32,346 nt of DNA. It comes from an uncultured Dehalococcoidia bacterium (lineage in GTDB: Bacteria; Chloroflexota; Dehalococcoidia; Dehalococcoidales; UBA1222). Below are positions 2,477 to 25,427 of the stretch, in pieces. The DNA lies in assembly GCA_903844845.1 (NCBI GenBank), contig CAIMVG010000007.1, positions 1 to 32,346 of the forward strand, written 5' to 3'. Made by a program: the position numbers and the translations under genes. The notes below the pieces were generated by a model. The model saw nothing but the letters and a program-made list of their open reading frames with translations, was not told where the DNA came from and ran no database searches. Each line of letters begins with the position of its first letter. The stretch's first letter is position 1.

Positions 2477-2505
2477 TTGATGATTTGGCCCGGAAAGCTT
2501 ATTAT
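2477..2505 (+). promoter_or_regulatory. Sigma-70-type promoter of the DUF5658 gene
   Basis: TTGATG at 2477-2482 and TATTAT at 2500-2505 are separated by 17 bases. The predicted transcription start near 2512 lies downstream of the TTG at 2473, which argues for the ATG at 2539 as the true start of the gene. Confidence 0.55.
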
Positions 2506-2538
2506 ATTGGTCTATACAGACAACCTGAATGGCCCAAA

Positions 2539-2919: not shown

Positions 2920-5331
2920 TTTGACCTGGCCCAAATAGGTTATAGTACTTTTAAGAATATCTTCTCGAAGCATTTCCTCAGTTTTGATTTTCGAATTCCC
3001 GGCAATCGTCGATTCAACCTGCTGCCGTAGTTCCCGAATCCCGAAGGGTTTCGCGATAAAAGGCAAATTGTTTTCCGTGAGGAAAGAACGGTTACGTTTC
3101 TCCGATAACCCACCGGTAAGGAATATGATTTTGCTGCGTATCCCGGGCTCGCACTCTACCAACTTGTAATATAAATCGATCCCATCGATTTCCGGCATCC
3201 GGATATCCGCCAGGATAAGGTCGAATTTACGCTTTCTGCATTCCTCAAGAGCGGTCCGTGCGTCAGCCACAGCCTCCACGGAATATCCTTCCCTCGAAAG
3301 AACCCGGTTTATCATGAGCCGGATCGACAACTCATCATCGATGACCAGAACGCTCGCTCCAAGTTGTGGGAGGGGGAGAGCTTGAAGAGGCACCGTACAG
3401 TCTGGTGAGTTCTGGATGCCTGTCGGCAGTTCAATGATGAAACAGGCACCATGTCCATAGAGGCTCCGGGCAAAGATCCTTCCACCATGGTCAGAGATAA
3501 TGCTCCGGCTAACACCGAGGCCCAAGCCGTTGCCTCCATCCTCCGTTCGAGTCGTGAAAAAAGTATCAAATATCCTTTCGATGTTCTCTTCAACTATGCC
3601 CGGGCCATTATCGGTGATCCTTATTACTATTCGATCGCCTTCGGAGGAAGTTCTAATAAAAAGCTTCCCTCCCTTGTGCTTTTCAAACATCGCTTGCTCG
3701 GCATTGATTATGATATTTAATAGAACCTGTTCTATCTGCGCGGAATCCAAAACAGCCAGCGGTAGGGCGGCGCACAAATTGGTTTTCACGACAATATTAT
3801 TCAGATATAACTCATGCGAGCGCATTTTTACCACGAGAGAAACCAGGGAATTTATGTCAACAGGCCTTCTCTCTTCTTTTCGATGCCTTGCAAACGAGAA
3901 TAACTTCTGCACAACACCAGCAGCTCGCTGGGCACTATGGTGGATGATCTCCAAATTCTCCTTGATATCTTCAGATACCTCAGCTTGTCTTAAGAGTTCC
4001 GAGAAACCTATCACGCTGGTAAGCGGGTTGTTCATTTCATGAGCAACAGTCGCAGCCAGTTCGCCTATCGCCGCCATACGGCTGGCCTGTGCAAGCTCTT
4101 GCTGCATCTTGCGTTCCTTAAATTCGGCCTGTACCCGTACAGTGACATCATGAAGCAGAACCACAAACCTTGACTTACTTCCTTCATGGTCTGCGACAGG
4201 GGAACATTTGATAACGAAATGTCTTCCGAGGCGATTATTGTATTCTTCGATGGAGATCGGCTTGCCAATTGCCAGAGATTCACAGAAAATATGAGCTCCC
4301 GGCGAAAGGGTCCCGGAATGTACCGCCCTGTTAAGGAATTGCCCCTTCAGTTCCTGTTTCGTCCCAGAAAGTAGCCTTTCTGCGCTATTATTGAGATTCC
4401 GTATACGAAAATCCGAGCCGATGATGAACATTGCGTCTTCGAGAGAATTGAACGACCCGCGCCAGTCAGAATTAGCTTCTTCGAGTTCCGCGGCAAATCG
4501 TTTCCGCTCCTTGACCTCTTCCATTAGTGAATTCGAAACACGTATATATTCTCCTGACACAAAAATAAAAACGGAGATGAAAACGGCAACGCGCATGCCT
4601 TGCCAGAACCACCACACAATCCCCCATGGTGACGCTATTTGTGCCGCTATATTACCCTGGAAAATAAATATCAGCACTGCAGCTATCGGAAGCAGATCGA
4701 GACTTCCAGTTTTTCGGTGGTACACAAAAAGGCTCGATCCCGCAAAACATAAAACACTCACGATTAACCCGTAGACGGACCACCCCAATCCTGTGAAAAT
4801 ATTATTTGCTGAAAGTGCCGGCCATGCACTTGAAAATTTCAGTATAATGCCGCAAATCAAGGCTGAGATAACAGCAGCTCCAATCAAAACCGGTGCGGCG
4901 TTTTTTTTCCCGGCAGATCCAGAAGTGTTCCCATTGCATTTCTGCCGGGCGAGGATATACCCGGTTGCAAGCAGACCGCCTGTCATCCCAGAAAAAAACT
5001 TCAGCCACAAGAATTGGGACGCTTCCGGAGTTATGAACAAAAAGAATCCTTCAGTGACGCTCATTGTGACCAGAGCGGCGCTGAAGTACAGGACACCCCG
5101 GTGCCTGCCATACCGGGCCAGTAGAAAGATAGAGAGCAGAACCATCGCGGAAGAACCCAGCATATCTACAACGCTGAATGGAACCTCCGCCCTCCAGAAG
5201 AAATTGGGCCAAATAAGGAGAAGCAGGGCCATAAGACATATAGGCACTGTTAATACTAAAAGCAAAAGGACTGACTGCCTATCGATTAGATGTTTTTGGC
5301 TGTTGGCATTGATCATTTCGTCGCGATCCAT
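2896..5331 (-). CDS. Membrane-bound hybrid sensor histidine kinase (PAS-HisKA-HATPase-receiver)
   Basis: I chose ATG 5331 because GAGGAGG sits six bases before it; an in-frame ATG at 5361 would add ten residues. In the longer numbering, residues 30-275 hold about seven hydrophobic helices (a MASE-like membrane sensor), 300-410 a PAS domain, and 425-490 the dimerisation domain with phospho-accepting His441 in VAHEMNNPL. Residues 535-645 form the ATPase domain (N-box Asn553, DNGPGI at 584, GLGLG at 612). A receiver follows at about 670-790 with Asp719 in LADIRMPEIDG, Thr749 and Lys771, then a ~30-residue tail. All catalytic residues are present. The kinase would autophosphorylate on His441 and pass phosphate to its own receiver. 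It lies 54 bases downstream of a NarL-type regulator on the same strand and is probably co-transcribed, so phosphorelay to that regulator is plausible but not shown. Confidence 0.9.
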   Translation of the reverse strand: MDRDEMINANSQKHLIDRQSVLLLLVLTVPICLMALLLLIWPNFFWRAEVPFSVVDMLGSSAMVLLSIFLLARYGRHRGVLYFSAALVTMSVTEGFFLFITPEASQFLWLKFFSGMTGGLLATGYILARQKCNGNTSGSAGKKNAAPVLIGAAVISALICGIILKFSSAWPALSANNIFTGLGWSVYGLIVSVLCFAGSSLFVYHRKTGSLDLLPIAAVLIFIFQGNIAAQIASPWGIVWWFWQGMRVAVFISVFIFVSGEYIRVSNSLMEEVKERKRFAAELEEANSDWRGSFNSLEDAMFIIGSDFRIRNLNNSAERLLSGTKQELKGQFLNRAVHSGTLSPGAHIFCESLAIGKPISIEEYNNRLGRHFVIKCSPVADHEGSKSRFVVLLHDVTVRVQAEFKERKMQQELAQASRMAAIGELAATVAHEMNNPLTSVIGFSELLRQAEVSEDIKENLEIIHHSAQRAAGVVQKLFSFARHRKEERRPVDINSLVSLVVKMRSHELYLNNIVVKTNLCAALPLAVLDSAQIEQVLLNIIINAEQAMFEKHKGGKLFIRTSSEGDRIVIRITDNGPGIVEENIERIFDTFFTTRTEDGGNGLGLGVSRSIISDHGGRIFARSLYGHGACFIIELPTGIQNSPDCTVPLQALPLPQLGASVLVIDDELSIRLMINRVLSREGYSVEAVADARTALEECRKRKFDLILADIRMPEIDGIDLYYKLVECEPGIRSKIIFLTGGLSEKRNRSFLTENNLPFIAKPFGIRELRQQVESTIAGNSKIKTEEMLREDILKSTITYLGQVKSGSGKDA

Positions 5332-5385
5332 CCCCCGCCTCCTCAGGTTTGCCCACCCCATTTATTCTCCGGCAGGAGTTCAAGA

Positions 5386-6087
5386 TCAAGGGGAAATAAT
5401 CTTCCGCTTGATAGCTTCGGAGACTGCTTGCGCCCTATCATTAACATTCAACTTTTGAAGAATCTGGTATATTTCTCTCTTAAGAGTAGAGCGGCTTATG
5501 GACAACAAGGAGGCGATTTCATCTCCTCCGATACCCTCGGCGGTATATTTCAATATTGACCTCTGCCGGTGGGTGAGAACCGGATCGACGTTAGTGCGGG
5601 AAATACTGGTAAATCTTGCAACCAGGTCACGGGTCAGAGAAGGGGCTATCGGACAGAGCCCCTCACAGACCTGAAAGACCGCGCGGGTGATCTGTTCGGA
5701 GTCGCAATCTTTAAGAAGGTACCCTGAAGCCCCGGCTTCTATAGCGTCATTGACATAGTTTTCAGCGTAAAGCGTCAAAACAAGGACATTGACACTCGGT
5801 ACCGCGCGTTTAATCTCTCTAGTAGCAGCAATACCGTCCATCTTGGGCATCTTCAAATCCATGAGAACGACATCCGGCACCAGCCGTATGGCTTTCTTAA
5901 CCGCTTCTTCACCGTCGCCAGCTTCGTCCACGATCTTGATCGACCTCTCGACCTCGAGCATACGCCGCAGTCCCTCACGAACTACCTGGTGGTCATCAAC
6001 AATGAGAACACGAACTGTATTCTTTTCAGAACGCACCCCCGTAATAGCCTGCGTCCTTATATCGGTCAACAAACCCGCACTGTACAT
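5386..6087 (-). CDS. NarL/FixJ-family response regulator (copy 1)
   Basis: The 233-residue form starts at ATG 6087, six bases after AGAGG. A GTG at 6141 would add 18 residues without a good ribosome binding site. About 23 extra residues precede the receiver, which begins at VRVLIVDDH. The phospho-acceptor is Asp77 in LMDLKMPKMDG, with the conserved Thr (VLTLYAE) and Lys (YLLKD). A LuxR-type helix-turn-helix fills the last 60 residues (LTHRQRSILKYTAEGI, then ISRSTLKREI). It is a DNA-binding transcription regulator controlled by phosphorylation. It is closely similar along its whole length to the regulator at 6401-7057, including the unusual KREI in place of the common KNHV/KTHV in the recognition helix region. 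The likely partner is the hybrid kinase downstream. Confidence 0.9.
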   Translation of the reverse strand: MYSAGLLTDIRTQAITGVRSEKNTVRVLIVDDHQVVREGLRRMLEVERSIKIVDEAGDGEEAVKKAIRLVPDVVLMDLKMPKMDGIAATREIKRAVPSVNVLVLTLYAENYVNDAIEAGASGYLLKDCDSEQITRAVFQVCEGLCPIAPSLTRDLVARFTSISRTNVDPVLTHRQRSILKYTAEGIGGDEIASLLSISRSTLKREIYQILQKLNVNDRAQAVSEAIKRKIISP

Positions 6088-6343
6088 CTTTTTCCTCTTC
6101 CTTCCGGATGTAATTCCCCTTCGGATATCACATCTTCTCACACAGGACCTGGAGGAGTAAGGACTTATGAGTCATTGCTGATGGACTTTCCAGCCTGCAA
6201 ATTTTGGGCTGAGTGGGTTAGGGGGTTGGCCTATAGTAGAAGGGGTCAAACAGTGATACAGGCATTGATTTCGCCCCTTCCGGCACGACTCTGGCTGATA
6301 ACCGTTTAAAACATGAGGACTAGGTTACCTGTGGTAGGTCGGT
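6088..6343. other. Spacer between two signalling transcription units
   Basis: About 250 bases lie between the upstream operon terminator and the start of the copy-1 regulator. The region should hold the promoter for the regulator-hybrid kinase pair. On the minus strand I see a TTGACC near 6244-6249 and TATAG near 6231-6236, but their spacing is too short for a standard promoter, so none is called. Confidence 0.4.
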
Positions 6344-6374
6344 ATAAAAAAAGAGCCCCGTTTGCGGAGCTCTT
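6344..6374 (-). terminator. Intrinsic terminator of the five-gene kinase operon
   Basis: A ten-base-pair hairpin (arms 6351-6360 and 6365-6374, four-base loop) lies 27 bases past the stop of the copy-2 regulator. In the minus-strand transcript the only non-Watson-Crick pair is a G-U, and the stem runs into a U-rich tail (6346-6352). In the plus direction the same pair would be a C-A mismatch, so it fits minus-strand termination best. Confidence 0.8.
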
Positions 6375-6400
6375 TTTGAGTGAGCGAAATTAACGTGATG

Positions 6401-7057
6401 TTAAACGGCGGCTTTAATTAACTTTCTCTTCATGGCGATTGAAACTGCATGTGCTCGATCATTTACACCGAGTTTATCGAATATATGCCGTATTTCCCGT
6501 TTAACGGTCGATGGGCTGATAAAAAATTTTGCCCCGATCTCCTTGCTGCTGACTCCCTCGGAGATCAACTGCAACATCTCGGCTTGACGGGACGTCAACG
6601 CAAGGGCATTGTATTCAGAACGCTTGTTCAGGTCGTTTATCAACTGCCGTGTCAACGATGGGGCGATGGGATTGAGGCCATCGTATACCTGGCGAATAGC
6701 CATCATAATCAACTTTGAATCGCTATCTTTTAGAAGGTAACCCGAGGCACCCGCATCCAGAGCTTCTTCCACATAATCCTCGGCATAGAGGGTCAGAACG
6801 AGCACCTGCGTTCGGGGCAGACGCTGTTTGATCTCCCTGGTTGCCGTAATTCCATCCATGCCAGGCATTTTCAGATCCATGATTACAACATCAGGCATTA
6901 ATGCAACCGCCCGACTGATAGCCTCGACTCCGCTTTTTGCTTCGCCTATGACCTCAAGGGTATCGTCCAGCTCGAGTATGCGCCGAAGTCCCTCCCTCAC
7001 AACATTGTGGTCATCGACAATCAGGATCTTAATCTTAGGACTAAATGTTTTCTCCAA
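6401..7057 (-). CDS. NarL/FixJ-family response regulator (copy 2)
   Basis: I place the start at the TTG at 7057: AAGGAG lies six bases upstream, the product is 218 residues (usual for NarL types), and the gene then overlaps the end of the kinase gene by only 17 bases. The longest open frame (GTG 7135) would intrude about 95 bases into the kinase. The receiver begins at KILIVDDH, with Asp61 in IMDLKMPGMDG and Lys in YLLKD. A LuxR-type helix-turn-helix ends the protein (LTSRQAEMLQLISEGV, then ISPSTVKREI). It is the last gene of the operon and the natural partner of the NarX-type kinase translated just before it. The overlap suggests translational coupling that keeps kinase and regulator amounts matched. 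Confidence 0.9.
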   Translation of the reverse strand: MEKTFSPKIKILIVDDHNVVREGLRRILELDDTLEVIGEAKSGVEAISRAVALMPDVVIMDLKMPGMDGITATREIKQRLPRTQVLVLTLYAEDYVEEALDAGASGYLLKDSDSKLIMMAIRQVYDGLNPIAPSLTRQLINDLNKRSEYNALALTSRQAEMLQLISEGVSSKEIGAKFFISPSTVKREIRHIFDKLGVNDRAHAVSIAMKRKLIKAAV

Positions 7058-8681
7058 CGGTTTCTCCTTCCATCTGACTAATAACTGCAGGAAGCGTGAG
7101 GCACGCTTTTGTGCCCTTGCCTCTTGTACTGACAATGGTTAGTTTCGCACAAAGCAATTCTGCGCGTTCCCTCATCCCCACCATCCCTACATGCTCCAGT
7201 ATCACACCGGAATTATTGACGGAATCCAGATCGAATCCGATTCCGTCATCTTCAATCACGACCGTGAACCGATCTTCGGAATTCTGTAACAAAATACTCA
7301 CTGAGGTGGCCTGAGCATGTTTGTGGATGTTACTCAGAATCTCCTGGAGAATCCAGTACACATTTGTTTCCACGGCTTTGTCGAATCTGGGAGTAGGACC
7401 GTCTAGTTTCAGTACACATTCAATGCCTTCCATTTTCAATGCTTCAATCGACTGCGTTATAGCATTCACAAGTCCCAATCGAATCAGTAATTCGGGGCGA
7501 AGATCCGCGATTGCTCTACGCAACTCCCTGATACTATTTTGAAGCGTTTCTTTTACTCGTAACAGAGAATCGCCAACATCGTCCAGCTGGTTGCAACTGA
7601 TGAGCTGGTGGCAAGCGGATATGTCCAGCGCGGCCCCGACAAGCCATTGAGCTACCCCATCGTGTATCTCTGTGGCTACTCGTCGGCGTTCATTGGTTTG
7701 GGCGCTCCCGATTTCTTTAAGTAATTTTCCGACATAGTTCTGTTGCGTCCTCATATCCGCCGATAACGCATCATTCTCCATCCCCATTCCGAATTGACGA
7801 GTGAGCAAACTGGTAAATGCTGCGTCACTGGGTTTAAAACTGGAGTTGGTTTGGCTTTTTACCTGGTTGATTACACCCACAATTTCCCCTTTAACAATCA
7901 ACGGGGCGCAGAGCATACATTCAACCGAAGACTTCTTCATTAGACGAGCCAGTTCTGGTGGAGAGTTTGTCGGGGAATAAACCACGGCGGAACCATTGTC
8001 TATTTTCGTTATTTTTTCGCAAATAAAATTCCATGAAGGATTTGAAACCCCTTTTTCAGCACGGACGGAATATTTTCCGGTTACCGCATCTTTCAATAAA
8101 ACTGAGACGTAGCAGGGCTCGGTCCTGTTGCTAAGCAAATTCAGCAATTGAACGAAGGAATCATCCGATTTCCGCCAGAAAACCTGCTTCTCGTCTATCT
8201 CGGAGAAAGCACTGTTTCTTAGCGATTCCGATATCTGGTTTACACCATCGATCGTCTGGAGAACCGACTCTCCCAGCTGCCTGGAAGTAAAAGGCCGTAG
8301 TAAAAACGATCGGATCGCGCAGCACTTTGATTGGGCGGCAGCAGGCATATTTTGGGCATCCGTTACGATAAGAACACCTGTATCGGGGGGAAATTGAGCC
8401 AAAATCATATCAAGAAGTTCAGTCTCGTAAACGCTGATGATAACCAGCCTGGCTTTGATACCATGCGCGTTGGTGATGGCGTCGCCGAAATCAGCAAAAC
8501 AATCAACACGATAATGCATCTTCAGCAGAACCCTGGCAATCACTGCCCGCGCAATCTGGTCTCGCTCCACAACTATCACCTTCTCGCTATTGAATATTGC
8601 TTTCTTTTTTGCAGAGGAGCGAGCTGTTGTTTTGGAAACAACGTTAGCATTAACCCCGGATTCTTGATTTAAAGTCACCAT
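7041..8681 (-). CDS. NarX/DegS-type sensor histidine kinase with pseudo-receiver and GAF domain
   Basis: The 546-residue form starts at ATG 8681, 13 bases after the upstream gene; a TTG at 8723 would extend it into that gene. Residues ~33-145 resemble a receiver domain (VIVVERDQIARAVI at the start, FLLRPF near the end). The phospho-acceptor Asp is absent: the third strand reads LVIISVYETE. A GAF domain follows at ~175-310 (LCAPLIVKGEIVGVINQV). The HisKA_3 dimerisation helix has His340 in RRRVATEIHDGVAQ, and the ATPase domain has Asn451 (EILSNIHKHA) and EDDGIGFD at ~477. There are no membrane segments, so it is cytosolic. It would phosphorylate the NarL-type regulator encoded immediately downstream. 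The dead receiver may sense protein contacts instead of phosphate, which is an inference. Confidence 0.9.
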   Translation of the reverse strand: MVTLNQESGVNANVVSKTTARSSAKKKAIFNSEKVIVVERDQIARAVIARVLLKMHYRVDCFADFGDAITNAHGIKARLVIISVYETELLDMILAQFPPDTGVLIVTDAQNMPAAAQSKCCAIRSFLLRPFTSRQLGESVLQTIDGVNQISESLRNSAFSEIDEKQVFWRKSDDSFVQLLNLLSNRTEPCYVSVLLKDAVTGKYSVRAEKGVSNPSWNFICEKITKIDNGSAVVYSPTNSPPELARLMKKSSVECMLCAPLIVKGEIVGVINQVKSQTNSSFKPSDAAFTSLLTRQFGMGMENDALSADMRTQQNYVGKLLKEIGSAQTNERRRVATEIHDGVAQWLVGAALDISACHQLISCNQLDDVGDSLLRVKETLQNSIRELRRAIADLRPELLIRLGLVNAITQSIEALKMEGIECVLKLDGPTPRFDKAVETNVYWILQEILSNIHKHAQATSVSILLQNSEDRFTVVIEDDGIGFDLDSVNNSGVILEHVGMVGMRERAELLCAKLTIVSTRGKGTKACLTLPAVISQMEGETVGENI

Positions 8682-8694
8682 TGTTTTGTCTCTT

Positions 8695-9084
8695 TCACGC
8701 GATACAAGATTTTGAATCACCAAGCATAAGCTTTTGAATGCAGGAAAAGATCCTATCGCTGCTAGCAGGTTTCTCGATCAATGCATCGGGGCCAATAGAA
8801 GATTCGTTAACGCCACCCACTTCAACTTTGGCGGTAAAATAAACGACTTTGACGTTAGGGATGCTTAATCTAAGCCGCCTGCAAACCTCATATCCATCCA
8901 TACCCGGCATAATAAGATCGAGGATCACCACGTCAGGGCTAAAGGCAGGCAAGACATCAAGCGCTTCTTTACCACCGCGAACAGCCATCGTTATACATCC
9001 CTTTTGGTCCAATATGCGACTGAGAGAATCGCGTATCGCGGGTTCATCATCCACGATCAGGACGTTTATGCGACGCTTAATCAT
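8695..9084 (-). CDS. Stand-alone receiver domain protein (CheY/Spo0F-like)
   Basis: The 129-residue form starts at ATG 9084, which overlaps the stop of the upstream kinase by eight bases and points to translational coupling. The frame stays open upstream to 9204, but that part lies inside the kinase gene. The protein is one receiver domain: acidic pair in VLIVDDE (Asp12, Asp13), phospho-acceptor Asp56 in ILDLIMPGMDG, conserved Thr in VYFTAK, and Lys in LIEKPAS. There is no output domain. Its position between two histidine kinases suggests a phosphate shuttle or sink linking the PAS kinase to the second kinase. That is inference; single-domain receivers also act by protein-protein contact. Confidence 0.88.
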   Translation of the reverse strand: MIKRRINVLIVDDEPAIRDSLSRILDQKGCITMAVRGGKEALDVLPAFSPDVVILDLIMPGMDGYEVCRRLRLSIPNVKVVYFTAKVEVGGVNESSIGPDALIEKPASSDRIFSCIQKLMLGDSKSCIA

Positions 9085-10606
9085 GTTCACGCGCCAATTC
9101 GAGGCCGGTACGCCCAGGTTTTTTTGAAACCCGCTGTACAAGCGGGAGTTCGACAATAAAAGTCGTACCTCCTGATGGATTATTTTTTGCTTTAATAAAT
9201 CCATGGTGCCGGGTTACGATACCATAACATACCGAAAGACCGAGGCCTGAGCGTTGGGCATTTTTTTTAGTAGTGAAGAATGGAAAAAAGATTTTTTGCA
9301 GATCTTCTTCTTTGATGCCCTTTCCCGAATCGCATATAAAGAGCCTCCCCCATTTGGAACTGATCTCGGTGGTGATGTTGATATCACCACCTTTCTTTTC
9401 ATTGATCGAATCTTCGGCGTTCATCACGATATTCATGATTACCTGTGTAATTTGATTGCTATCGCCCTGAATATAGAATCCCGCCCTAGATAGATTGCGG
9501 GTTACATGAATATTTTTGACATTTTGCTGATAGCTGCGTACTTCAAGTACTTTTTTTACCAGGGTGTTAAGGTTGACAGTAGTCATCGAGGTATTGATAC
9601 CACGCGCGTAATTTAACAACTCTGACATAGTCCTGCTGGCCCTCTCGGCTTCATCATGAATAAGCTTAAGATCTTTGCGAATTTTTGGATTAGCGCCACC
9701 AGCCATGAGCAATTCGGAATAAAGCAAAATACTTGATAGCGGATTGTTTACTTCATGGGCGATTCCGGCAGTCATTTCTCCAAGCGTCGCGAGTAAGGTC
9801 GCCTGCTGTAATTGCCGCTGAATAAGTTTGATCTCAGTGATATTTCTGAAATTCGAAACCATACCAATGATTGTCCCCGCCCTGTCACAATATGGCACGA
9901 CTGTGAGGTGGAAATTCGCTTTTTCAGCGGGTGAGATTTCTGCTTCCGTCTCCTGTTCGATTCTGTTCGCTCCGCCGAGTATCTGGGTCAACGGGCACTG
10001 AACCCTGTCGCAACAAATTCGCGCCAATACTTCATTGCATTTGCGCCCAAGGGATTTTATCGGATCGATACCAAAAGTCGTTGCGAATTCGTCGTTCATT
10101 CTTCTGATACTGAAATCTTTGTTGATAATACACATAGCGCCAGAGGCAGTATTAAACACTCTGTCCAACTCAAGGGCGTTTTGTAAAATACTACTCTCGA
10201 TACGTTTTCTTTCCGATATGTCGAAGGCAATGCATCTGAGGCCGATTGATTTCCCGGATTCCCCTCCAATCGTACTCGCAAATACCTCGATGGGGATTCG
10301 TTTCCCGATTTTAGAAATAATTTCACACTCAGATTTGCCACCGGCGCTTTCTGAAGGACGATTAAGAGCCCCATTTTGAAGCAATTCAAAATCCCATGAG
10401 TCGAAAATGTTCAAAATATTTGAACCTGAATGGATTTCTTCGATTCTATGTCCGGTAAAGGAAAGCAATGCCGCATTGGCATAAATCAACTTTCCCGAGT
10501 TATCAAGTTCAAAAGCAAAACAAGGTAAAGAAGCTGCAAATTTGCGGAATGAGGATTCTTCTTCCACACCTTGGTTAAATTCCCATTTTTTGTCTAGAAG
10601 TTGCAC
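9077..10606 (-). CDS. Soluble PAS-PAS sensor histidine kinase
   Basis: The 509-residue protein starts at GTG 10606, just after the stop of the small membrane protein gene and behind a GGCGGG stretch. The first PAS domain spans ~20-135 and the second ~145-260. The second contains four clustered cysteines (Cys190, 198, 199, 204, ending in CPL), a pattern seen in many PAS domains of anaerobes and possibly redox- or metal-sensing. The dimerisation helix has His284 in GIAHEVNNPLSS. The ATPase domain shows Asn396, CDSGKGI at 425 and GLGL at 454. There are no membrane helices. It lies in an operon with a membrane protein upstream and a lone receiver downstream that overlaps its stop codon. The receiver is the most likely phosphate acceptor. 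Confidence 0.9.
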   Translation of the reverse strand: MQLLDKKWEFNQGVEEESSFRKFAASLPCFAFELDNSGKLIYANAALLSFTGHRIEEIHSGSNILNIFDSWDFELLQNGALNRPSESAGGKSECEIISKIGKRIPIEVFASTIGGESGKSIGLRCIAFDISERKRIESSILQNALELDRVFNTASGAMCIINKDFSIRRMNDEFATTFGIDPIKSLGRKCNEVLARICCDRVQCPLTQILGGANRIEQETEAEISPAEKANFHLTVVPYCDRAGTIIGMVSNFRNITEIKLIQRQLQQATLLATLGEMTAGIAHEVNNPLSSILLYSELLMAGGANPKIRKDLKLIHDEAERASRTMSELLNYARGINTSMTTVNLNTLVKKVLEVRSYQQNVKNIHVTRNLSRAGFYIQGDSNQITQVIMNIVMNAEDSINEKKGGDINITTEISSKWGRLFICDSGKGIKEEDLQKIFFPFFTTKKNAQRSGLGLSVCYGIVTRHHGFIKAKNNPSGGTTFIVELPLVQRVSKKPGRTGLELAREHD

Positions 10607-10617
10607 TTGATACCCGC

Positions 10618-10914
10618 CTACCGCCCGGCCGTTATTTTTCGACCTGTGAGTTTAAGAAAAATCAAAGCTAGTGAGCAAATGATTAAAACGAAAGAAGAAA
10701 TCCACAGGGCACCAAGTAATGAGGAGTTCTGTATAGTCCCCACCAAAACAACGGTTTGAGCAACTGCGAAAAGTCCCCATCCGCTGGAAAGAACTATCCA
10801 GAACATCCAGCGTTCTCCGGTTTTACGATAGGTGAGAAAGTAACCGCCAATCGCGAGGGCAACGATGAACCAGGCAAATCCGCAATTAACCCCATGCAGT
10901 AGTGTGTCCGACAT
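10618..10914 (-). CDS. Small three-helix membrane protein, first gene of the kinase operon
   Basis: The 98-residue protein starts at ATG 10914, four to five bases after a strong GGAGG. It has three hydrophobic segments (about residues 10-28, 37-59 and 66-88), separated by the charged loop YRKTGERW, and a basic tail. I do not recognise a family. It is translated just ahead of the PAS kinase, which lacks membrane segments, so it could tether or sense for that kinase. That idea rests only on gene order. Confidence 0.75.
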   Translation of the reverse strand: MSDTLLHGVNCGFAWFIVALAIGGYFLTYRKTGERWMFWIVLSSGWGLFAVAQTVVLVGTIQNSSLLGALWISSFVLIICSLALIFLKLTGRKITAGR

Positions 10915-11029
10915 TTTGCCTCCAACAATTCCGGGTTTCCACCGTTTTTCTCAAACCATCCTGTTTCGAATGGTCTGCATTTGCGGGGAAAAGACCCGGT
11001 GGTCTCATGCATTCCACTTTAGTTTTCAC

Positions 11030-11058
11030 ATTATGGTTTGATTTACGGTCTGCAACAA
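11030..11058 (-). promoter_or_regulatory. Promoter of the kinase operon
   Basis: On the minus strand TTGTTG (11053-11058) and CATAAT (11030-11035) are 17 bases apart. Predicted transcription begins near 11023, leaving a leader of about 110 bases before the first start codon. A 12-base perfect palindrome (CAACAATTGTTG, 11056-11067) overlaps the -35 element. Confidence 0.55.
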
Positions 11059-11067
11059 CAATTGTTG
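11056..11067. promoter_or_regulatory. Palindromic candidate operator over the -35 of the kinase operon
   Basis: CAACAATTGTTG is identical to its own reverse complement and covers part of the -35 hexamer, so a dimeric DNA-binding protein here could block or recruit RNA polymerase. Several copies of AAATCAA in either orientation lie around it (11036-11044, 11093-11100, 11146-11152, 11252-11258). Which protein would bind is unknown; the NarL-type regulators of the same operon are candidates. Confidence 0.35.
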
Positions 11068-11456
11068 GTTCAGGAAAATGACCCTTTAGGGCCAAATCAA
11101 ACTTAAAAGTATCGAAATCGGTCAGGGATGCAACCGAAATCCAAACCAAATCAAGGAAACTTCAATACACCATGGAAATGGCCCAAAAGGTGCACGAAGT
11201 AAAAACCGACTTGCACACGTTTGGGATCAAAAAACATGCCGGGGAGGGTGTAAATCAAAAACTTCTCTCGAAAAGCCAAACGGCCACATCTGAGGCGATT
11301 GAAGTATTACGATAAAAAACTAGAATTCTTATGCCATAAAAATGCTGATATCCTGGAATTTATCGGTATAAGTATTGAAGAGATGGATCAATACCCAAGC
11401 GGTGTTTAGACTGTAGTTAAAATGGGGAAAGGTGCCTGGTGTGCGCAAGAAACAAA
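11068..11456. other. Intergenic region between kinase operon promoter and tRNA-Ala
   Basis: About 390 bases without a convincing gene. A 47-codon open frame at 11172-11315 (plus) has no good ribosome binding site and no recognisable domain. No strong hairpin and none of the spacer repeats found in the right half occur here. Confidence 0.5.
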
Positions 11457-11532
<76 letters not shown>

Positions 11533-13729: not shown

Positions 13730-13735
13730 CACGGC

Positions 13736-13829
13736 GGAGGCGGATAGGCTCTGGTGGGCCTTGCGGACTTCAAATCCGTTGGCGACGGTTAACCCGCCGC
13801 GGGGGGTTCGATTCCCTCCCCCTCCGCCA
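13736..13829 (+). tRNA. selC: Selenocysteine tRNA (anticodon TCA)
   Basis: The 94-base gene has the marks of tRNA-Sec. It has a six-base-pair D stem (AGGCTC/GGGCCT) with a four-base loop, an anticodon loop CTTCAAA with TCA at 13770-13772 to read UGA, a long variable arm (GGCG...CGCC) and an encoded CCA end at 13827-13829. In the standard fold the eight-pair acceptor stem GGAGGCGG/CCCCCTCC carries one C-C mismatch at the sixth pair. A shifted pairing GGCGGAGG (13733-13740) with CCTCCGCC (13821-13828) is perfect but would displace the D arm and lose the CCA. SelA converts seryl-tRNA-Sec to selenocysteyl-tRNA-Sec. The gene lies 28 bases before selD. Confidence 0.93.
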
Positions 13830-13857
13830 AGATCCGCACAGAGAAGGAGATCATAAA

Positions 13858-14904
13858 TTGACAGAGACCGGTAGCGACGTAAAGCTAACCGCCCTCTCCC
13901 GTTATTCGGGCTGAGGGGCCAAACTAAGTCCGGGTGACTTAGCAAAGGCTCTGGGTTGTCTAAAGATCCCGCAGAACGAAAACGTCCTGGCAGGGGTTAA
14001 GGACGATGCTGGCGTTTACAAACTACGCGACGACCTGGCTATTGTAGAGACGGTTGATATGATAGCAGCCATCGTTGACGACCCTTACAGCTTCGGGATG
14101 ATTGCCGCAGCGAATGGCATAAGCGACATATATGCGATGGGGGGCAAGCCCATAACTGCGATGAACATCGTCGGTTTCCCTTCGGAGACAATGGATATAT
14201 CGGTACTTAGCCTGATCCTTCAAGGAGCCCTCGCCAAGTTGAACGAGGCGGGCATTATCCTGGTCGGCGGTCACAGCATCCGTAACGACGAAGTGAAATT
14301 CGGTTTAAGCGTCACCGGAACCATCCACCCCGACCGGATCGTGACCAAGGGAGGGGCGAAAGTTGGTGACCGGCTTATAATGACCAAGCCCATAGGCACC
14401 GGCATACTCACTACGGCGCTTAAAGCCGAGATGCTTCCTGCGGACGTTCTTAAAAAACTGGTGGCACAGATGACTCGCCTTAACGACAAAGCATGCGACG
14501 CCATGCTGGAAATCGGGGCGAACGCCTGCACCGACGTAACAGGGTTTGCCCTTATCGGGCATGCCTGCGAGATGGCCGAAGCCAGTGGGACCTCGATTGA
14601 GATTGATTCCAAAAAGGTTCCTATGATTCCTGAGGCACTTCAATTCGCACACATGGGACTGATACCGGAAGGCATGTACGCCAACTGGGAATACCGGGCG
14701 CCCATGGTAAACACAGGACCGATTGACGAAGACACCATGAGTGTCTTGTACGACCCGCAGACTTCAGGAGGGCTCCTGATATGCGTCCCCGAAGAAAAAA
14801 CTGCCGCTATGCTCGCAAAACTTCATGAGAAGGGCGTAAACGAAGCCGCGGTCATGGGCAAGGTAATAGAATCGTCCCCCGCCGGCAAGATCATCGTAAT
14901 ATGA
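13858..14904 (+). CDS. selD: Selenide, water dikinase SelD, itself a selenoprotein (in-frame UGA)
   Basis: Read through the TGA at 13912-13914 this is a 348-residue SelD, the usual family length. The TTG start at 13858 follows AAGGAG by eight bases. The N-terminus reads ...RYSG-U-GAKLSPGDL, placing selenocysteine (residue 19) exactly where SelD proteins carry the catalytic Cys or Sec; the following Lys is also catalytic. Later conserved blocks are DDPYSFG, IAAANGISDIYAMGGKPITA, GGHSIRNDEVKFGLSVTG, TKPIGTGILTTA, CTDVTGFALIGH and DPQTSGGLL. SelD makes selenophosphate from selenide and ATP, the selenium donor for SelA. Without recoding, only the part from 14059 (281 residues) would be annotated, lacking the active site. 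selA overlaps the stop by four bases. Confidence 0.95.
13912..13942 (+). promoter_or_regulatory. Selenocysteine UGA codon with bacterial SECIS element in selD
   Basis: Nine bases after the UGA begins a six-pair stem CTAAGT (13924-13929) / ACTTAG (13937-13942) with the apical loop CCGGGTG (16-22 bases after the UGA). Position and a G/U-containing loop fit bacterial SECIS elements, which SelB binds to deliver selenocysteyl-tRNA at the ribosome. The hairpin is seen in the sequence; binding is inferred from the family. Confidence 0.85.
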
Positions 14905-16313
14905 AAGCATCGAGGGCACCACGCACTCGACACACAACGAACACCGCATTGCGGAGCCTCCCCGCAATCGAAAAACTGCTTGAATCTCCGGAACTTATCC
15001 CAGAAATAACGCTTTACACACGCCCACTGGTAATCGAGGCCACCCGGCATGTACTTTCCGAACTGCGTGATCGGATCAGAGAGGGCACAGCACCCCGGGG
15101 TGAAGCCGACCTACCGGTTTTAATCAGAACGCGTTTGTTGTTAGAATGGCCAGGTTTTATGAGCGGCGTGATAAACGGCACAGGCATCATCCTCCACACC
15201 AACCTCGGGCGAGCCCCTTTATCCCAAAAAGCGCTGGAAGCGGTTTCTAATCTCGGGGGGCAATATTTTAACCTGGAAGCCGACCTAAAGAGCGGCGGGC
15301 GGGGAACCCGGGCATCAGAGTTGAGACGACTGCTATCCCGGCTAACCGGTGCTGAAGACGCAATCGCTGTAAACAACAATGCCGCGGCAGTCCTCCTCGT
15401 CCTTGTGGCAATGGCGAACGGCCGCGAAGCCATAGTTTCCCGCGGCGAACTTGTCCAGATCGGAGGGGGCTTCAGGGTACCCGAAATAATGGAACAAAGC
15501 GGGGTAAAACTGCGCGAAATAGGGACCACCAACCACACAACGAGGAAGGACTACGCGCGGGCAATCAACGAACATACCGCGATGATCCTGAAGATACACC
15601 AATCCAATTTCGTCCAAAACGGCTTTGTGGGCGAAACTTCCCTAAGCGAACTATCGGAATTGGCGGCCGAGCACAACGTTCCCTTGATTTACGACCTGGG
15701 CAGCGGCGCAGTTATTGACACCGCGGAATTCGGTTTAAAACCGGAGCCGACGGTCCAGCAGGCATTGCGGGATGGAGCCGACCTCGTTTGTTTTTCCGGA
15801 GACAAGCTATTCGGTGGCCCCCAGGCCGGAATTATAGCCGGAAAACGAAAGCTCATCGAACCTCTGCTGAATCACCCATTGATGCGAGCGGTGCGGCTGG
15901 ATAAGCTTTCAGCAATCGCGCTGGAAGCCACTGCTGCGGTCTATTTGAACAGGACAGCGACTCTGGACATCCCATCATGGAGAATGATGTCTTATGACCT
16001 TTCAGCCCTGAGATTACGAGCCCGCGCCATTATGCGTAAATTAAAAGCCTGCGATATCAAAGCAGAGATAAAAGAGGGCTTAAGTATGGTGGGAGGCGGA
16101 ACCCTGCCGGAACAAAGCCTGTCAACCGCACTGGTCAGTCTTACCCCGACAGGGTCAGCCGAAGCATGCGCACGCTCCCTCCGCCTCTCGCAACCTCCAC
16201 TGATCGCCAGGATAGAAAACGATCATATCCTCATCGATATGCGCACGGTCTTTCCAGAACAGGATGACGCAGTTGCAAAAGTCGTCCAAAGAGCCATGAA
16301 CCGGAAAAACTGA
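14901..16313 (+). CDS. selA: L-seryl-tRNA(Sec) selenium transferase
   Basis: The 470-residue protein (bacterial SelA is usually 450-475) starts at ATG 14901, overlapping the selD stop in ATGA, which implies translational coupling. SelA is a PLP enzyme of decameric structure that turns serine on tRNA-Sec into selenocysteine using selenophosphate. The PLP lysine is Lys302 in CFSGDKLFGGPQAG. Other conserved blocks are INGTGIILHTNLGRAPL near 91-107, YFNLEADLKSGGRGTR near 122-136, AVNNNAAAVLL, SRGELVQIGGGFRVPEIM and IYDLGSGA. No key residue is missing. selB starts two bases past its stop. Confidence 0.97.
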   Translation: MKASRAPRTRHTTNTALRSLPAIEKLLESPELIPEITLYTRPLVIEATRHVLSELRDRIREGTAPRGEADLPVLIRTRLLLEWPGFMSGVINGTGIILHTNLGRAPLSQKALEAVSNLGGQYFNLEADLKSGGRGTRASELRRLLSRLTGAEDAIAVNNNAAAVLLVLVAMANGREAIVSRGELVQIGGGFRVPEIMEQSGVKLREIGTTNHTTRKDYARAINEHTAMILKIHQSNFVQNGFVGETSLSELSELAAEHNVPLIYDLGSGAVIDTAEFGLKPEPTVQQALRDGADLVCFSGDKLFGGPQAGIIAGKRKLIEPLLNHPLMRAVRLDKLSAIALEATAAVYLNRTATLDIPSWRMMSYDLSALRLRARAIMRKLKACDIKAEIKEGLSMVGGGTLPEQSLSTALVSLTPTGSAEACARSLRLSQPPLIARIENDHILIDMRTVFPEQDDAVAKVVQRAMNRKN

Positions 16314-16315
16314 CG

Positions 16316-18214
16316 ATGTTGACCATCGGCACCGCCGGGCATATCGACCATGGCAAATCAAGCCTGGTCAAAGCGTTAACATCCATCGACCCCGACCGCC
16401 TCCCAGAAGAAAAAGAACGCGGTATGACCATCGACCTGGGATTCGCCTGGATGCCGCTTCCTTCGGGTGATACCGTTGGGATCGTCGATGTTCCAGGGCA
16501 CAAACAATTCATCCACAACGTTATCCCCGGACTTTTCGGGATAGACGCCGTCCTCCTGGTGGTCGCGGCTGACGACGGCTGGATGCCCCAGACCGAGGAA
16601 CACCTGCGGATACTGGACCTGCTGGGCATCCAACACGGGATAATAGTCATCAATAAAATCGACCTCGCCGGTGACCCGGAGTGGGTGTCGCTGGTTGAAA
16701 AAGACATCATCTCGCACCTTTCAGGGACCAGCCTCGAAGGCTCTCCTGTCGCACGCGTCAGCACTCGAAGCGGGGCGGGAATCGAGGAATTGAAAAAGAC
16801 GATTGCCGACCTGGCGGCAAAGCTCGCTCCACGCCAGGAAATCGGAAAACCGCGCCTCCCGATAGACCGGGTTTTCGTCATCAAGGGAAGCGGCGTAGTT
16901 GTGACGGGAACCCTTTCCCAGGGCACGTTCTCGACGGGAAAAGATGCATTTATCATCCCTTCCGGCACCGCTGCACATATCAGGGGGCTGGAAAGTTACA
17001 AGCATATGGTACAAACGGCTGCGCCGGGAAGCCGCGTGGCGGTCAACCTGACAGGCGTAAAACGGGAGGAAGTCGCCCGCGGGGACATCGTCGCAGGTTC
17101 TCGGGGTTATACTCCCTCCAGCCGCACGGTGGATATAAACGTGCAACTGCTGGCTTCGGCCGGCGCATCCCTGAAAAGCATGTCCGAGGTGCTCGTCTAC
17201 CTGGAGACACGTGAGCTTCTCGCCCGTGTGGCATTGATGGGATCGAAAACGATCAAACCGGGAGAAACCAGCCTCGCACAATTAAGATTCAGCGAGGATG
17301 TTGCCGTTTTCACGGGGGAACGTTTCATAATCAGGCAACAATCGCCCGCCGTGACGATCGGCGGAGGAGTGGTACTTGACCCGCTGGCTTCGAAATTCAA
17401 ACTGGGGGAAATCCCTGCCAGGAAAGTACTACTTGAAAGGCGCCTGAGCCTGAAGCTGGAAGACCTCATATCGGCCGAGATAGAAAAAAACAGGTTCTCC
17501 GAAACCGGCAGTCTCCTGGCGGCAAGCCTTTTTTCGTCATCTGAAATCGCCGCTAAAGTGAAACAGCTTGCAAACCAGAAAAAACTGGTTCAAGCAGGGC
17601 CTTATTCGATAGACATCCGCGTCTGGGAGGAGGCATGCGGAAAACTGCTTTCGACCATTACAAAAGAAATGGCGTCGGACACTCTGAAGCATGGCGTACC
17701 CCAGGCTGTTCTGCAGGAAGGACTCGGCTTTCCGAAAGAAGTATTCGAAACGCTCGTGCTGAACATGATTTCTTCCGGGAAAATCGCACGTGAAGAGGAA
17801 TTACTTACTCTCCCGCAAAACAAACCAGTCCTCTCCAAACAGCAGGAGGCATTAAAAGCCCAGGTGCTCGGCCTTTTTGCGAAAAATCCTTCAAGCCCCC
17901 CGAATCTTAAAGAACTTTCAGCCCAGCTGCCTTCAAGCCAGCCGGTGGTGCACTATATGATAAAACAAGGGGAACTGGTCGAATTGCCCGACGGGATACT
18001 TCTCGAAGCAAAACAATTCCAGGCCGTAAAGGAACAGATAACCGGACGGCTGAAGGAAAACGGGAAAATTACGATACAGGAGATAAACCAGCTATTCGGG
18101 TTCAGCCGGAAATACAGTGTACCGCTATTAACACACCTCGACCGTATCGGCATCACAAGGCGCGAAGGAGATGCCAGGGTAGCCGGGAAAAAACTGATCC
18201 AGGGTCAAAAATAA
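16316..18214 (+). CDS. selB: Selenocysteine-specific elongation factor SelB
   Basis: The 632-residue protein (E. coli 614) replaces EF-Tu for selenocysteyl-tRNA and recognises the SECIS hairpin. The GTPase domain shows GHIDHGKSS (8-16), DVPGH (58-62) and NKID (113-116). Domains II and III follow (IDRVFVIKGSGVVVTGTL, then RFIIRQQSPAVTIGGGVVLDP near 335-355). The C-terminal ~270 residues form the winged-helix repeats that bind the SECIS RNA, ending with INQLFGFSRKYSVPLLTHLDRIGITRREGD, typical of SelB. The gene is the last of the selC-selD-selA-selB run; the SECIS in selD is a substrate in the same transcript. No clear terminator follows before the repeat-rich spacer. Confidence 0.97.
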   Translation: MLTIGTAGHIDHGKSSLVKALTSIDPDRLPEEKERGMTIDLGFAWMPLPSGDTVGIVDVPGHKQFIHNVIPGLFGIDAVLLVVAADDGWMPQTEEHLRILDLLGIQHGIIVINKIDLAGDPEWVSLVEKDIISHLSGTSLEGSPVARVSTRSGAGIEELKKTIADLAAKLAPRQEIGKPRLPIDRVFVIKGSGVVVTGTLSQGTFSTGKDAFIIPSGTAAHIRGLESYKHMVQTAAPGSRVAVNLTGVKREEVARGDIVAGSRGYTPSSRTVDINVQLLASAGASLKSMSEVLVYLETRELLARVALMGSKTIKPGETSLAQLRFSEDVAVFTGERFIIRQQSPAVTIGGGVVLDPLASKFKLGEIPARKVLLERRLSLKLEDLISAEIEKNRFSETGSLLAASLFSSSEIAAKVKQLANQKKLVQAGPYSIDIRVWEEACGKLLSTITKEMASDTLKHGVPQAVLQEGLGFPKEVFETLVLNMISSGKIAREEELLTLPQNKPVLSKQQEALKAQVLGLFAKNPSSPPNLKELSAQLPSSQPVVHYMIKQGELVELPDGILLEAKQFQAVKEQITGRLKENGKITIQEINQLFGFSRKYSVPLLTHLDRIGITRREGDARVAGKKLIQGQK

Positions 18215-18861
18215 ATAATTTACGCCGGGCTTCTTTAAAATAATTTTTTAGGCGAGAGGCGACATTGACCAATATCATTCCGACACTATAAAAAAGACAC
18301 CCATGTAATATTATAACTGTTTATAACGAGGCTAGACTGATTTTATGTTAAGGTGATTCCGGGTATCGGGGACACGTTTAACCTGGATCCCTAGAGCCTC
18401 GAAATCGACTCTGGATTCCGGCTATCGCGCCGGAATGACAAAACGGAAGGATGAGTGGTTCGTCAAACGGATTTATTCTGGATTCCCTCGAGCCTCGAGG
18501 ACAAGAACACTCGAGCCTCGAGTGCGAGAACCTCTGGGGACATCCCGAGGCCCAGGATGAGATGGGGGTGTAATGACCAAACGAACGAGGATAATCGACT
18601 CTGGATTCCGGCTGTCGCGCCGGAATGACAAACGTCGTATCGCCAAACATGCTTTCTGTATTCACTCGAACCCCGGGTCACGGTCCGGGATGACAGGAAG
18701 GAGTAGGTGAGGGTACCACGAAGGAACGAGATTGCCGCGTCGCCAGGTTCCCCGCGATGACAATGGGCAGTATTCACGCTAACTTTTTCCAGGAAATTAC
18801 GTTAGATACTGGTGAGAACCAACAATTAAAACCAATTTATAAATTTCAAAGGAGGCCCGAA
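18215..18861. repeat. Repeat-rich spacer 1 (families A, B, C and D)
   Basis: This 650-base spacer has no gene. Family A (consensus GGATTCCGGCTGTCGCGCC then GGAATGACAA) occurs at 18404-18442 and 18594-18632. Family B (CTCGAGCCTCGAGGACAAGA / CCTCGGGGACATCCCGAGG blocks) spans about 18476-18560. A family C hairpin (CCCCGGGTCACGGTCCGGG then ATGACAGG) lies at 18670-18697. Family D (GAACGAGATTGCC ... CGCGATGACAA) occupies 18723-18762. Each is a short near-palindrome ending in GATGACA or AATGACA. A separate AT-rich stretch near 18311-18325 shares TATAACTGTTTAT with 24765-24777. Confidence 0.8.
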
Positions 18862-20096: not shown

Positions 20097-20125
20097 TTGA
20101 TTTTTTAGTCCAGAATGTATAGCAT
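20097..20125 (+). promoter_or_regulatory. Possible efp promoter
   Basis: TTGATT (20097-20102) and TAGCAT (20120-20125) are 17 bases apart, giving a start near 20132 and a leader of about 40 bases before the ATG at 20175. The -10 is weak, so the call is tentative. Confidence 0.35.
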
Positions 20126-20174
20126 ATTACAAGAATATGATTTAGAATCGAGTCAGGAGAGAAACCGCCGGCTT

Positions 20175-20741
20175 ATGGAAATCGAAGAAGTACACAAAAA
20201 TACCAAGCTTTTATATCAAAACAAACCCTGGAACGTGGACGGCGCCGAGTTCGTCAAACCCGGCAAAGGGCGCGCCATCTACAAACTCCGCCTGAAAAAC
20301 TTGCTCGACGGCGGAGTTCTGGACGTCACTTTTCACTCCGGGGAAAAAGTGGATGAAGCCAGTATCACCAACACCGAGATGCAGTACCTGTACAAAGAGG
20401 CCGACCACTACGTGTTCATGAACACACAGAATTTCGAACAGACCTTCGTAACCGAAAAACAGCTCGGGGACAAGATCAAGTTCCTCAAGGAAGGCACGCT
20501 GGTCAACGTTCAGCTGCTCGACGAACTCCCGATAGACATCACCATACCCACCTTCGTGGAGCTCGCCGTCGTCGAAACAGGCTCTTCCATAAAAACCGCC
20601 ACGGTTACCGCCCAGAACAAATCGGCAAAACTGGAAACCGGATTCACTATCGACGTGCCCACTTTCATCAAGGAAGGCGACGTACTGAAGATAGACACAA
20701 GAACCGGCAACTACGTTGAAAGACTGGGCACCAAGAAGTAA
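20175..20741 (+). CDS. efp: Translation elongation factor P
   Basis: The 188-residue form starts at ATG 20175, matching the family length of about 185-190; an upstream ATG at 20115 would add 20 unmatched residues. EF-P enters the ribosome between the P and E sites and relieves stalling at proline runs. The KOW-like N-terminal domain holds the modification loop VKPGKGRAIYK with target Lys31, followed by LKNLLDGG, the OB domains (YLYKEADHYVFMNTQNFEQ) and the C-terminal signature AKLETGFTIDVPTFIKEGD. The Lys in PGKG together with the adjacent epmA gene suggests beta-lysylation or lysylation of Lys31. The ribosome binding site is unclear: AGGAGA sits farther upstream than usual. Confidence 0.95.
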   Translation: MEIEEVHKNTKLLYQNKPWNVDGAEFVKPGKGRAIYKLRLKNLLDGGVLDVTFHSGEKVDEASITNTEMQYLYKEADHYVFMNTQNFEQTFVTEKQLGDKIKFLKEGTLVNVQLLDELPIDITIPTFVELAVVETGSSIKTATVTAQNKSAKLETGFTIDVPTFIKEGDVLKIDTRTGNYVERLGTKK

Positions 20742-20744
20742 TCT

Positions 20745-21671
20745 ATGCCCCCCGAACAGGAGCGCCTGGCAAAGATCAAATCCAACCTCATGCGCCGCGC
20801 TCAGATTTACGACCTCGCCCGCGATTTTTTCCGCGGGCGAGGCTTTTTTGAGGTGGAAACACCAACCAGGGTGCCGGCGATCGCCCCCGAGTTAAACATC
20901 GTTCCTGAAGAGAGTTCGGACTGGTACCTGATAACGTCCCCCGAACTGCACATGAAGCGCCTGCTGGCGGCGGGCTACCCCAGGATTTTCCAGATAAGCC
21001 ACTGCTTCCGTAAAGGCGAACGCGGGCGACTGCACAACCCCGAATTCAGCCTCCTGGAGTGGTACCGTTCGGCCGCGGGGTTTCAGGACGTCATCATCGA
21101 CACGGAGCAACTGGTCACGGCCATCGCGGGCAAGCTTGAATCCGGAAATACAATAAACTACCAGGGGAACAAGGTCGATCTCTCGCTTCCCTGGCCGCGT
21201 CTCCCGGTAAGGGAAGCATTTATCGAAAACGCCGGCTGGGACCCCGTGGCGAATTACGAACCGGAACGGTTCGACCATGACATGGCCACGCTGGTGTTGC
21301 CCAAACTCGAAAGCGCCAGGCCGACCGTCCTGGTGGAATACCCGGCTGCCGCAGCCTCCCTGGCCCGCCTGAAACCGGGCGATCCGGCGGTAGCCGAAAG
21401 GGCGGAGGTATTTATAAGCGGGCTTGAGATCGCCAACGCGTACAGCGAACTAACCGACGCCGACGAGCAAAGAAAACGCTTCGAAGCGGAGATACAACAG
21501 ATACAACGCGAACAGGGAAGGAAAATGAAAATGCCCGAATCTTTTATTGAGGCGGTGGGATATATGCCCGAATGCGGAGGCATAGCGCTCGGGATGGAAA
21601 GGCTGGTAATGCTGTTTTGCAATGCGGGAAGCATAGAAGAAGTGACGGCTTTCACGGCTGGCAACATATGA
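20745..21671 (+). CDS. epmA: EF-P lysine ligase (EpmA/GenX/PoxA family)
   Basis: The 308-residue protein is a class II lysyl-tRNA synthetase-like enzyme without the anticodon-binding domain, the hallmark of EpmA (E. coli 325 residues). It starts MPPEQERLAKIKSNLMRRAQ. Motif 2 reads FRKGERGRLHNPEFSLLEWYR, preceded by TSPELHMKRLLAAGYPRIFQI, and motif 3 reads GGIALGMERLVML. In E. coli the enzyme activates (R)-beta-lysine and attaches it to the conserved EF-P lysine. The gene begins three bases after efp, so enzyme and substrate are co-transcribed. EpmB, which makes beta-lysine, is not in this window. The dUTPase gene overlaps its stop codon. Confidence 0.92.
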   Translation: MPPEQERLAKIKSNLMRRAQIYDLARDFFRGRGFFEVETPTRVPAIAPELNIVPEESSDWYLITSPELHMKRLLAAGYPRIFQISHCFRKGERGRLHNPEFSLLEWYRSAAGFQDVIIDTEQLVTAIAGKLESGNTINYQGNKVDLSLPWPRLPVREAFIENAGWDPVANYEPERFDHDMATLVLPKLESARPTVLVEYPAAAASLARLKPGDPAVAERAEVFISGLEIANAYSELTDADEQRKRFEAEIQQIQREQGRKMKMPESFIEAVGYMPECGGIALGMERLVMLFCNAGSIEEVTAFTAGNI

Positions 21672-22180: not shown

Positions 22181-22707
22181 CCCCAATACAGGGTCGCCGC
22201 GCCCAGTCATCACCGGGTATTATTCAACGATCCGTACGTAATGAATAGTTCTGGATCCCGGGTCTCGGCCCGGGATGACAAGAAAGAGTTCCCCGAATTC
22301 AAAGATTCCTCGGTCAACGGGAAAGTCACTCTGGATTGCCGGGTCTCGACGCCCGGCAATGACAATTAACATCAACGCATACTGCCAACAAACGGCAGTC
22401 AACTGAGAGAAAGCGGGCAAAGGAAATGGATCCCTCGAGCCTCGAGGACAAGAACCTCGGGGAATAGCCCGAGGCCCCGGGTCTGCGGCCCGAGGATGAC
22501 AGGATGGGCATCGGAGTAAAGAATCGGATCAGGATCCCGGTTCGCTTAAGCGGACGAAATCGACTCTGGATTCCGGCTGTCGCGCCGGAATGACAATTGT
22601 AACAGACAAAAAGGAAGACCCCTCACCTTAGTCCTCTCCCACAGAGGGGAGAGTAAACAACCGAGAGGTTAAGGCGGGGATGCCCGACAAAAGGCAATGC
22701 CAGCTAA
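22181..22707. repeat. Repeat-rich spacer 2 (families A, B, C and a common intergenic repeat)
   Basis: No gene lies in these 530 bases. Family C hairpins are at 22251-22282 (GGATCCCGGGTCTCGGCCC form) and 22331-22367 (variant with GGATTGCCGGGTC arms). Family B lies at 22431-22502, ending in a variant arm that closes with GAGGATGACA. Family A is at 22559-22596. A different element at 22619-22653 (CCTCACCTTAGTCCTCTCCC then a complementary GAGGGGAGAG) resembles a repeat widespread in bacterial spacers. No terminator with a T tract is seen for either flanking gene, so these hairpins may serve that role. Confidence 0.78.
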
Positions 22708-24757: not shown

Positions 24758-25427
24758 ACAAAGCTATAACTGTTTATCAACTATGAATGAGCGAGGCGGT
24801 CGGCTATAGACAATCAGCTTTCTGTAAAAAACCACAGGGAGCTTATAGGTTTTCGGCCGAGCCGAAAATATAATAGAAATGGATCCCGGGTCGCGGCCCG
24901 GGATGACAAAGGATTTCTTCTCAACTCAAAGACCCGGCGGCCAACAAGGTTTGTCATTCTGGATTGCCGGGGCTCCACGCCCAGCAATGACATGCACAAG
25001 AAGTCAGTTATCAACGGTCAGCTTTCAGCGACAGAATAATGAGGGGGCTGGGGACTAGATGGATGAAAATAAAAAAATAATTGCCGCGCTTCGCTCGCAA
25101 TCACCGCAGGTTGTTGAGTAAAATCATATAATAATTAGCCAGGCGGATTCCGACGCTCCTCCCCAAATCGACTCTAGATCCCTCGAGGACACGCTCGAGG
25201 ACAAGAACCTCGGGGAACAAACCCGAGGCCCTCGAGGACACGCTCGAGGACAAGAACCTCGGGGAACAAACCCGAGGCCCTCGAGGACACGCTCGAGGAC
25301 AAGAACACTCGAGCCTCGAGTGCGAGAACCTCGGGGGACATCCCGAGGCCTCGGGGAACAGCCCAAGGTCCGGCTATCGCGCCGGAATGACACGAGAGCA
25401 TGTGGCCCGCCTCTCGTAAACAGGCTG
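24758..25427. repeat. Repeat-rich spacer 3 (families A-E, including a 49-bp tandem array)
   Basis: No gene lies in this ~670-base spacer. Family C hairpins are at 24890-24910 and 24955-24991, a family E fragment (GTCAGCTTTCAGCG) at 25018-25031, and a family D fragment at 25080-25106. A long family B composite runs from 25173 to 25368. Inside it a 49-bp unit (CTCGAGGACACGCTCGAGG then ACAAGAACCTCGGGGAACAA) starts at 25182, 25231 and 25280, the third copy diverging halfway. A truncated family A hairpin (25369-25392) closes the block. Confidence 0.8.
25182..25328. repeat. 49-bp tandem repeat within family B
   Basis: Three head-to-tail units begin at 25182, 25231 and 25280. The first two are identical over the full period; the third keeps the first 34 bases and then switches to the CACTCGAGCCTCGAGTGCGA block that also occurs at 18508-18527, 30481-30500 and partly near 30800. 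Units are joined without unique spacers, so it is not a CRISPR array. Confidence 0.85.

Follow-up and report, generated by a model that had tools for sequence, protein, structure and literature searches.

Formate dehydrogenase FdhA is the commonest bacterial selenoprotein, and its UGA codon is decoded by SelB with a SECIS element lying immediately downstream. The selenophosphate synthetase SelD is a different protein, but has the UGA, the adjoining downstream SECIS and SelB in common with FdhA. It ranks second among prokaryotic selenoproteins in breadth of distribution (PMC13188914) and belongs to the 25 bacterial selenoprotein families known (PMC1794560). The Sec-containing bacterial SelDs and the eukaryotic and archaeal SPS2 (SEPHS2) proteins, all of family TIGR00476, carry a catalytic selenocysteine (Sec) in an N-terminal loop, and in the bacterial ones a bacterial SECIS follows just past the UGA. 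The solved Cys-containing SelDs (3u0o and 2yye) are of the same family and have the same residues, but with a Cys at the Sec position, meaning that those chains are no selenoproteins.

We have analysed a selD locus in a draft Dehalococcoidales genome (29 contigs), where the window denotes the whole 32,346-nt stretch of DNA that was studied. From its sequence, we predict with very high confidence that the gene product is a Sec-containing selenophosphate synthetase, with the catalytic Sec likewise in the N-terminal loop, homology over the full length and a SECIS likewise just past the UGA. Nothing of substance distinguishes it from the known Sec-SelD and SPS2 proteins; what is particular here is the Dehalococcoidales lineage and the TTG start. 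No observation spoke directly against this reading. The predicted product is a textbook kind of selenoprotein, real and well conserved, which is misannotated by ordinary gene callers. The surprise implied by the first-pass annotation was overstated, since SelD is a standard selenoprotein family, and the understanding of selenium metabolism is unchanged by the finding. Its weight lies mainly in annotation: in ordinary gene calls the N-terminus is lost, and the catalytic residue with it, so that SelD looks like a truncated protein of 281 aa. Our literature search found no paper joining SelD, selenoprotein and Dehalococcoidia.

The selD reading frame and its operon

The features of the locus are as follows.

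13735..13828 (+): selC, tRNA-Sec, anticodon UCA (ARAGORN; Rfam RF01852, 70.8 bits against a gathering score of 47)
13844..13849 (+): Shine-Dalgarno sequence AAGGAG of selD, with an 8-nt gap to TTG 13858
13858..14904 (+): selD, predicted selenophosphate synthetase, 348 aa, Sec at residue 19 (recoded translation, TIGR00476 match, alignment to solved SelDs, TGA in relatives)
13912..13914 (+): in-frame UGA of selD, almost certainly read as Sec (TGA in 35 of 35 order-level genomes, alignment with the catalytic Cys, selection on both sides)
13924..13942 (+): putative bacterial SECIS hairpin, 7 bp, loop CGGGU, 9 nt past the UGA (fold, covariation, synonymous constraint)
14901..16313 (+): selA, selenocysteine synthase, its start overlapping the selD stop (ATGA) (TIGR00474, 537.9 bits)
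16316..18214 (+): selB, Sec-specific elongation factor with a C-terminal winged helix (TIGR00475, 357 bits; SelB-wing_3)

The frame runs from the start codon TTG 13858–13860 to the final stop TGA 14902–14904 and is interrupted only by the TGA at 13912–13914. The first-pass annotation had described precisely this frame, with a well-spaced AAGGAG before it, and all its coordinates match the sequence. It had also foreseen that standard calling would truncate the gene, and the longest selD entry in the standard-code ORF list is indeed only 281 aa, from ATG 14059. When the TGA is translated as U, the product has 348 residues (...SRYSG-U-GAKLSPGDL...) and scores 361.9 bits against TIGR00476, for which the cutoff is 125; the match spans profile positions 1–310 of 311. 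In an alignment with the solved SelDs 2yye and 3u0o, residue 19 takes the place of their catalytic Cys (GC-x-x-K), and SG-U-GAK retains the C/U-x-x-K pattern, with its conserved Lys, in the N-terminal loop. The family alignment that the first-pass annotation had asked for therefore bears out its claim of a selenoprotein SelD with U at the active site.

The placing of selC, selA and selB in the same cassette as selD, claimed in the same annotation, is also correct. The four genes form one selC-selD-selA-selB cassette in which selB starts 2 nt past selA, so that SelA, SelB and tRNA-Sec, the machinery expected for a bacterial selenoprotein, are all encoded in the operon of selD. In most of the examined relatives with enough flanking sequence selA lies 3′ of selD, usually together with selB, and a tRNA-Sec lies upstream of selD in many relatives, though not in all. 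Two close relatives (L036 and L047) have selD-selA-selB with no adjoining tRNA-Sec detected by ARAGORN or Rfam.

Conservation of the UGA and of its flanks

SelD was searched for in 61 genomes (the source genome and others of its genus, family and order), in which the stop-free matches begin past the UGA site. Thirty-five genomes of the order, the source genome included, have a SelD match that spans the site, and in all 35 the codon is TGA and never Cys. The codon was inspected directly in 31 sequences, comprising 30 from the searched genomes (the source genome included) and one named record, and also in further named records; the named near relatives are Dehalococcoidia or Dehalococcoidales MAGs. 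The SelDs of the relatives share 46–84% protein identity with the one studied. Within the sampled order, every SelD spanning the site is thus a Sec form, with clear SECIS covariation. TGA again predominates in a phylum-wide sample of 400 genomes, where a smaller share of the SelD matches lack a stop. Elsewhere in the phylum, two genomes (L105 and L107) have SelD matches within open frames of 743–750 aa without a stop, which suggests a fusion of a non-Sec SelD with a further domain.

A Cys codon in close relatives with no SECIS conservation, or a second full-length SelD in the genome with no product read through the UGA, had been named in the first-pass annotation as grounds for abandoning the Sec reading. 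The order relatives spanning the site include no Cys codon, and the search of the genome yielded no further selD, a count limited by a run of N of at least 11.5 kb. The two other matches of the AIR-synthase fold were rejected as second selD genes: one is ThiL, above the cutoff, and the other is a HypE-like protein by its best match, which falls below the cutoff.

The start region is conserved too. Of eight family members compared, seven have the TTG in the same place and an AGGAG ahead of it; in the exception, L009, a GTG occurs two codons further on. The AGGAG is kept 5′ of the TTG in relatives L004–L008 and L010. For residues 4–18, before the UGA, dN is 0.21 and dS 0.88 (dN/dS about 0.23), and for residues 20–67, after it, dN is 0.05 and dS 1.36 (dN/dS about 0.04), each pooled from seven comparisons. 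These ratios indicate purifying selection on the codons both before and after the UGA. Since the TTG and the Shine-Dalgarno sequence are conserved as well, we conclude that the UGA lies inside a translated reading frame.

A real stop at 13912, or a sequencing or assembly error there, would leave a working SelD of 281 aa from ATG 14059; a table-11 ORF caller gives exactly this product, which still matches both AIR-synthase domains. However, such a form is devoid of the N-terminal selenide-binding loop, and with it of the Lys and the catalytic residue. The same TGA recurs in every order-level genome spanning the site, and the codons between the UGA and ATG 14059 are strongly constrained. We therefore give this reading a negligible probability; the UGA is almost certainly read as Sec and not as a stop.

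The SECIS hairpin and decoding of the UGA

The arms of the hairpin are CTAAGTC (13924–13930) and GACTTAG (13936–13942), with 16 nt from the UGA to the loop. A small apical loop bearing a guanosine is characteristic of bacterial SECIS elements (PMC1088965), and the selD hairpin, with its 7-bp stem and 5-nt loop CGGGU directly 3′ of the UGA, has this form. Across the 31 sequences, 91.7% of the cells pair, as compared with 12–44% when the 3′ arm is shifted by 1–3 columns. The covariation score and the paired percentage were reached by none of 500 shuffles, which ignore kinship, and the covariation counts are inflated by related sequences. The hairpin codons also show the lowest synonymous variation of selD, ranking first of 342 six-codon windows among the eight nearest genomes. 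The bacterial SECIS nine bases past the UGA that the first-pass annotation had proposed is well supported by these results. The single-sequence fold of the region is only modestly more stable than shuffles (z −1.64), as expected because the hairpin is short.

The pairing of alignment columns 19 and 31 is A-U in 17 of the 31 sequences and G-C in 13, with one exception overall. The A-U form corresponds to Ser AGT with Leu TTA (17 sequences), and the G-C form to Gly GGT with Leu CTN in 12 of 13. The Leu change is synonymous, and protein constraint therefore does not explain the covariation. The Gly form occurs both in L016 and L018, whose proteins resemble those of Ser-form relatives, and in the L021–L032 group, which suggests, judging by protein resemblance and not by a tree, that the G-C form may have arisen more than once.

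In principle any in-frame UGA is open to readthrough, and the codon could be read by a near-cognate tRNA or be reassigned, for example to Trp. Yet selD itself ends in UGA, its operon supplies tRNA-Sec, SelA and SelB, a SECIS-like hairpin with a compensatory change stands 3′ of the codon, and the aligned residue is the catalytic Cys or Sec; there is practically no chance that a decoding other than Sec applies.

For Sec insertion, established SelD, SelA and SelB biochemistry leads us to propose the following route. Ribosomes would start at TTG 13858, and the SECIS at 13924–13942 would recruit SelB with Sec-tRNA(Sec) at UGA 13912. Sec would then be inserted as catalytic residue 19 in the flexible N-terminal selenide-binding loop, with translation continuing to 14902. 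SelD would make selenophosphate, which SelA would use in converting Ser-tRNA(Sec) into Sec-tRNA(Sec) for delivery by SelB. Because SelD itself needs Sec, its production would require some pre-existing SelD product. The positive feedback loop described in the first-pass annotation is a logical dependency only; the proposal that SelD in general depends on itself goes back to Guimaraes et al. (PNAS 93:15086, 1996; cited in PMC8659212).

Other selenoprotein candidates and the remainder of the window

SelD might further be the organism's only selenoprotein, in which case the Sec machinery would have no use beyond producing the enzyme of its own selenium donor, a closed and apparently self-serving loop; this would be an addition to the Sec-SelD explanation and not a replacement for it. 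In its favour, there is no match to the molybdopterin oxidoreductase family PF00384 in the readable sequence of the genome and no selenouridine synthase above cutoff, and a covariance model built from the SECIS of selD detected no second full-length element there. The FlpD match and the 12 Pyr_redox_2 matches have no in-frame stops and were ruled out as further selenoproteins. Apart from selD, the SECIS model gave two partial matches in the genome, which we judged from the surrounding sequence not to be second SECIS elements.

However, three genomes of the same family (G001, G004 and G005) have PF00384 genes with an in-frame TGA. In G001 and G004, nuoE/nuoF-like and fdhA-like genes adjoin acpS-yebC-ruvC-ruvA, the in-frame TGA lying in the PF00384 protein. 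The source genome has acpS-yebC-ruvC-ruvA as well, with a run of N directly upstream of acpS: C21:60500-72000, at least 11.5 kb, reads N where G001 and G004 carry the in-frame-TGA fdhA. The lack of a readable fdhA copy is therefore uninformative, and the search of other selenoprotein families was not exhaustive. That SelD is the sole selenoprotein is very unlikely in our estimate. In the extracted stretch L080 (G000:C21:60500-80499, from the source genome), the run of N occupies positions 1–11501 to the end of the stretch and truncates acpS.

Elsewhere in the window, a 664-aa ORF at 2–1993 (−), open at the window edge, consists of repeated units of about 90 residues (..NPLNVAAKYVDDISKGNIPAKI..) and by eye resembles a HAMP-like repeat array. 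Sensor histidine kinases and response regulators, recognized by eye from their translations, follow in a run at 2896–10606 (−). Dispersed repeat families of 40–131 nt, with 2–7 copies each, lie at 18400–18763, 22240–22596, 24953–25393, 30406–30924 and 31915–32047; they are mostly GC-rich and are the source of several spurious ORFs. At 20115–21671 (+), an EF-P gene is directly followed by one for EpmA, the EF-P lysine aminoacylase (cutoff 286.9, score 297.5 bits).
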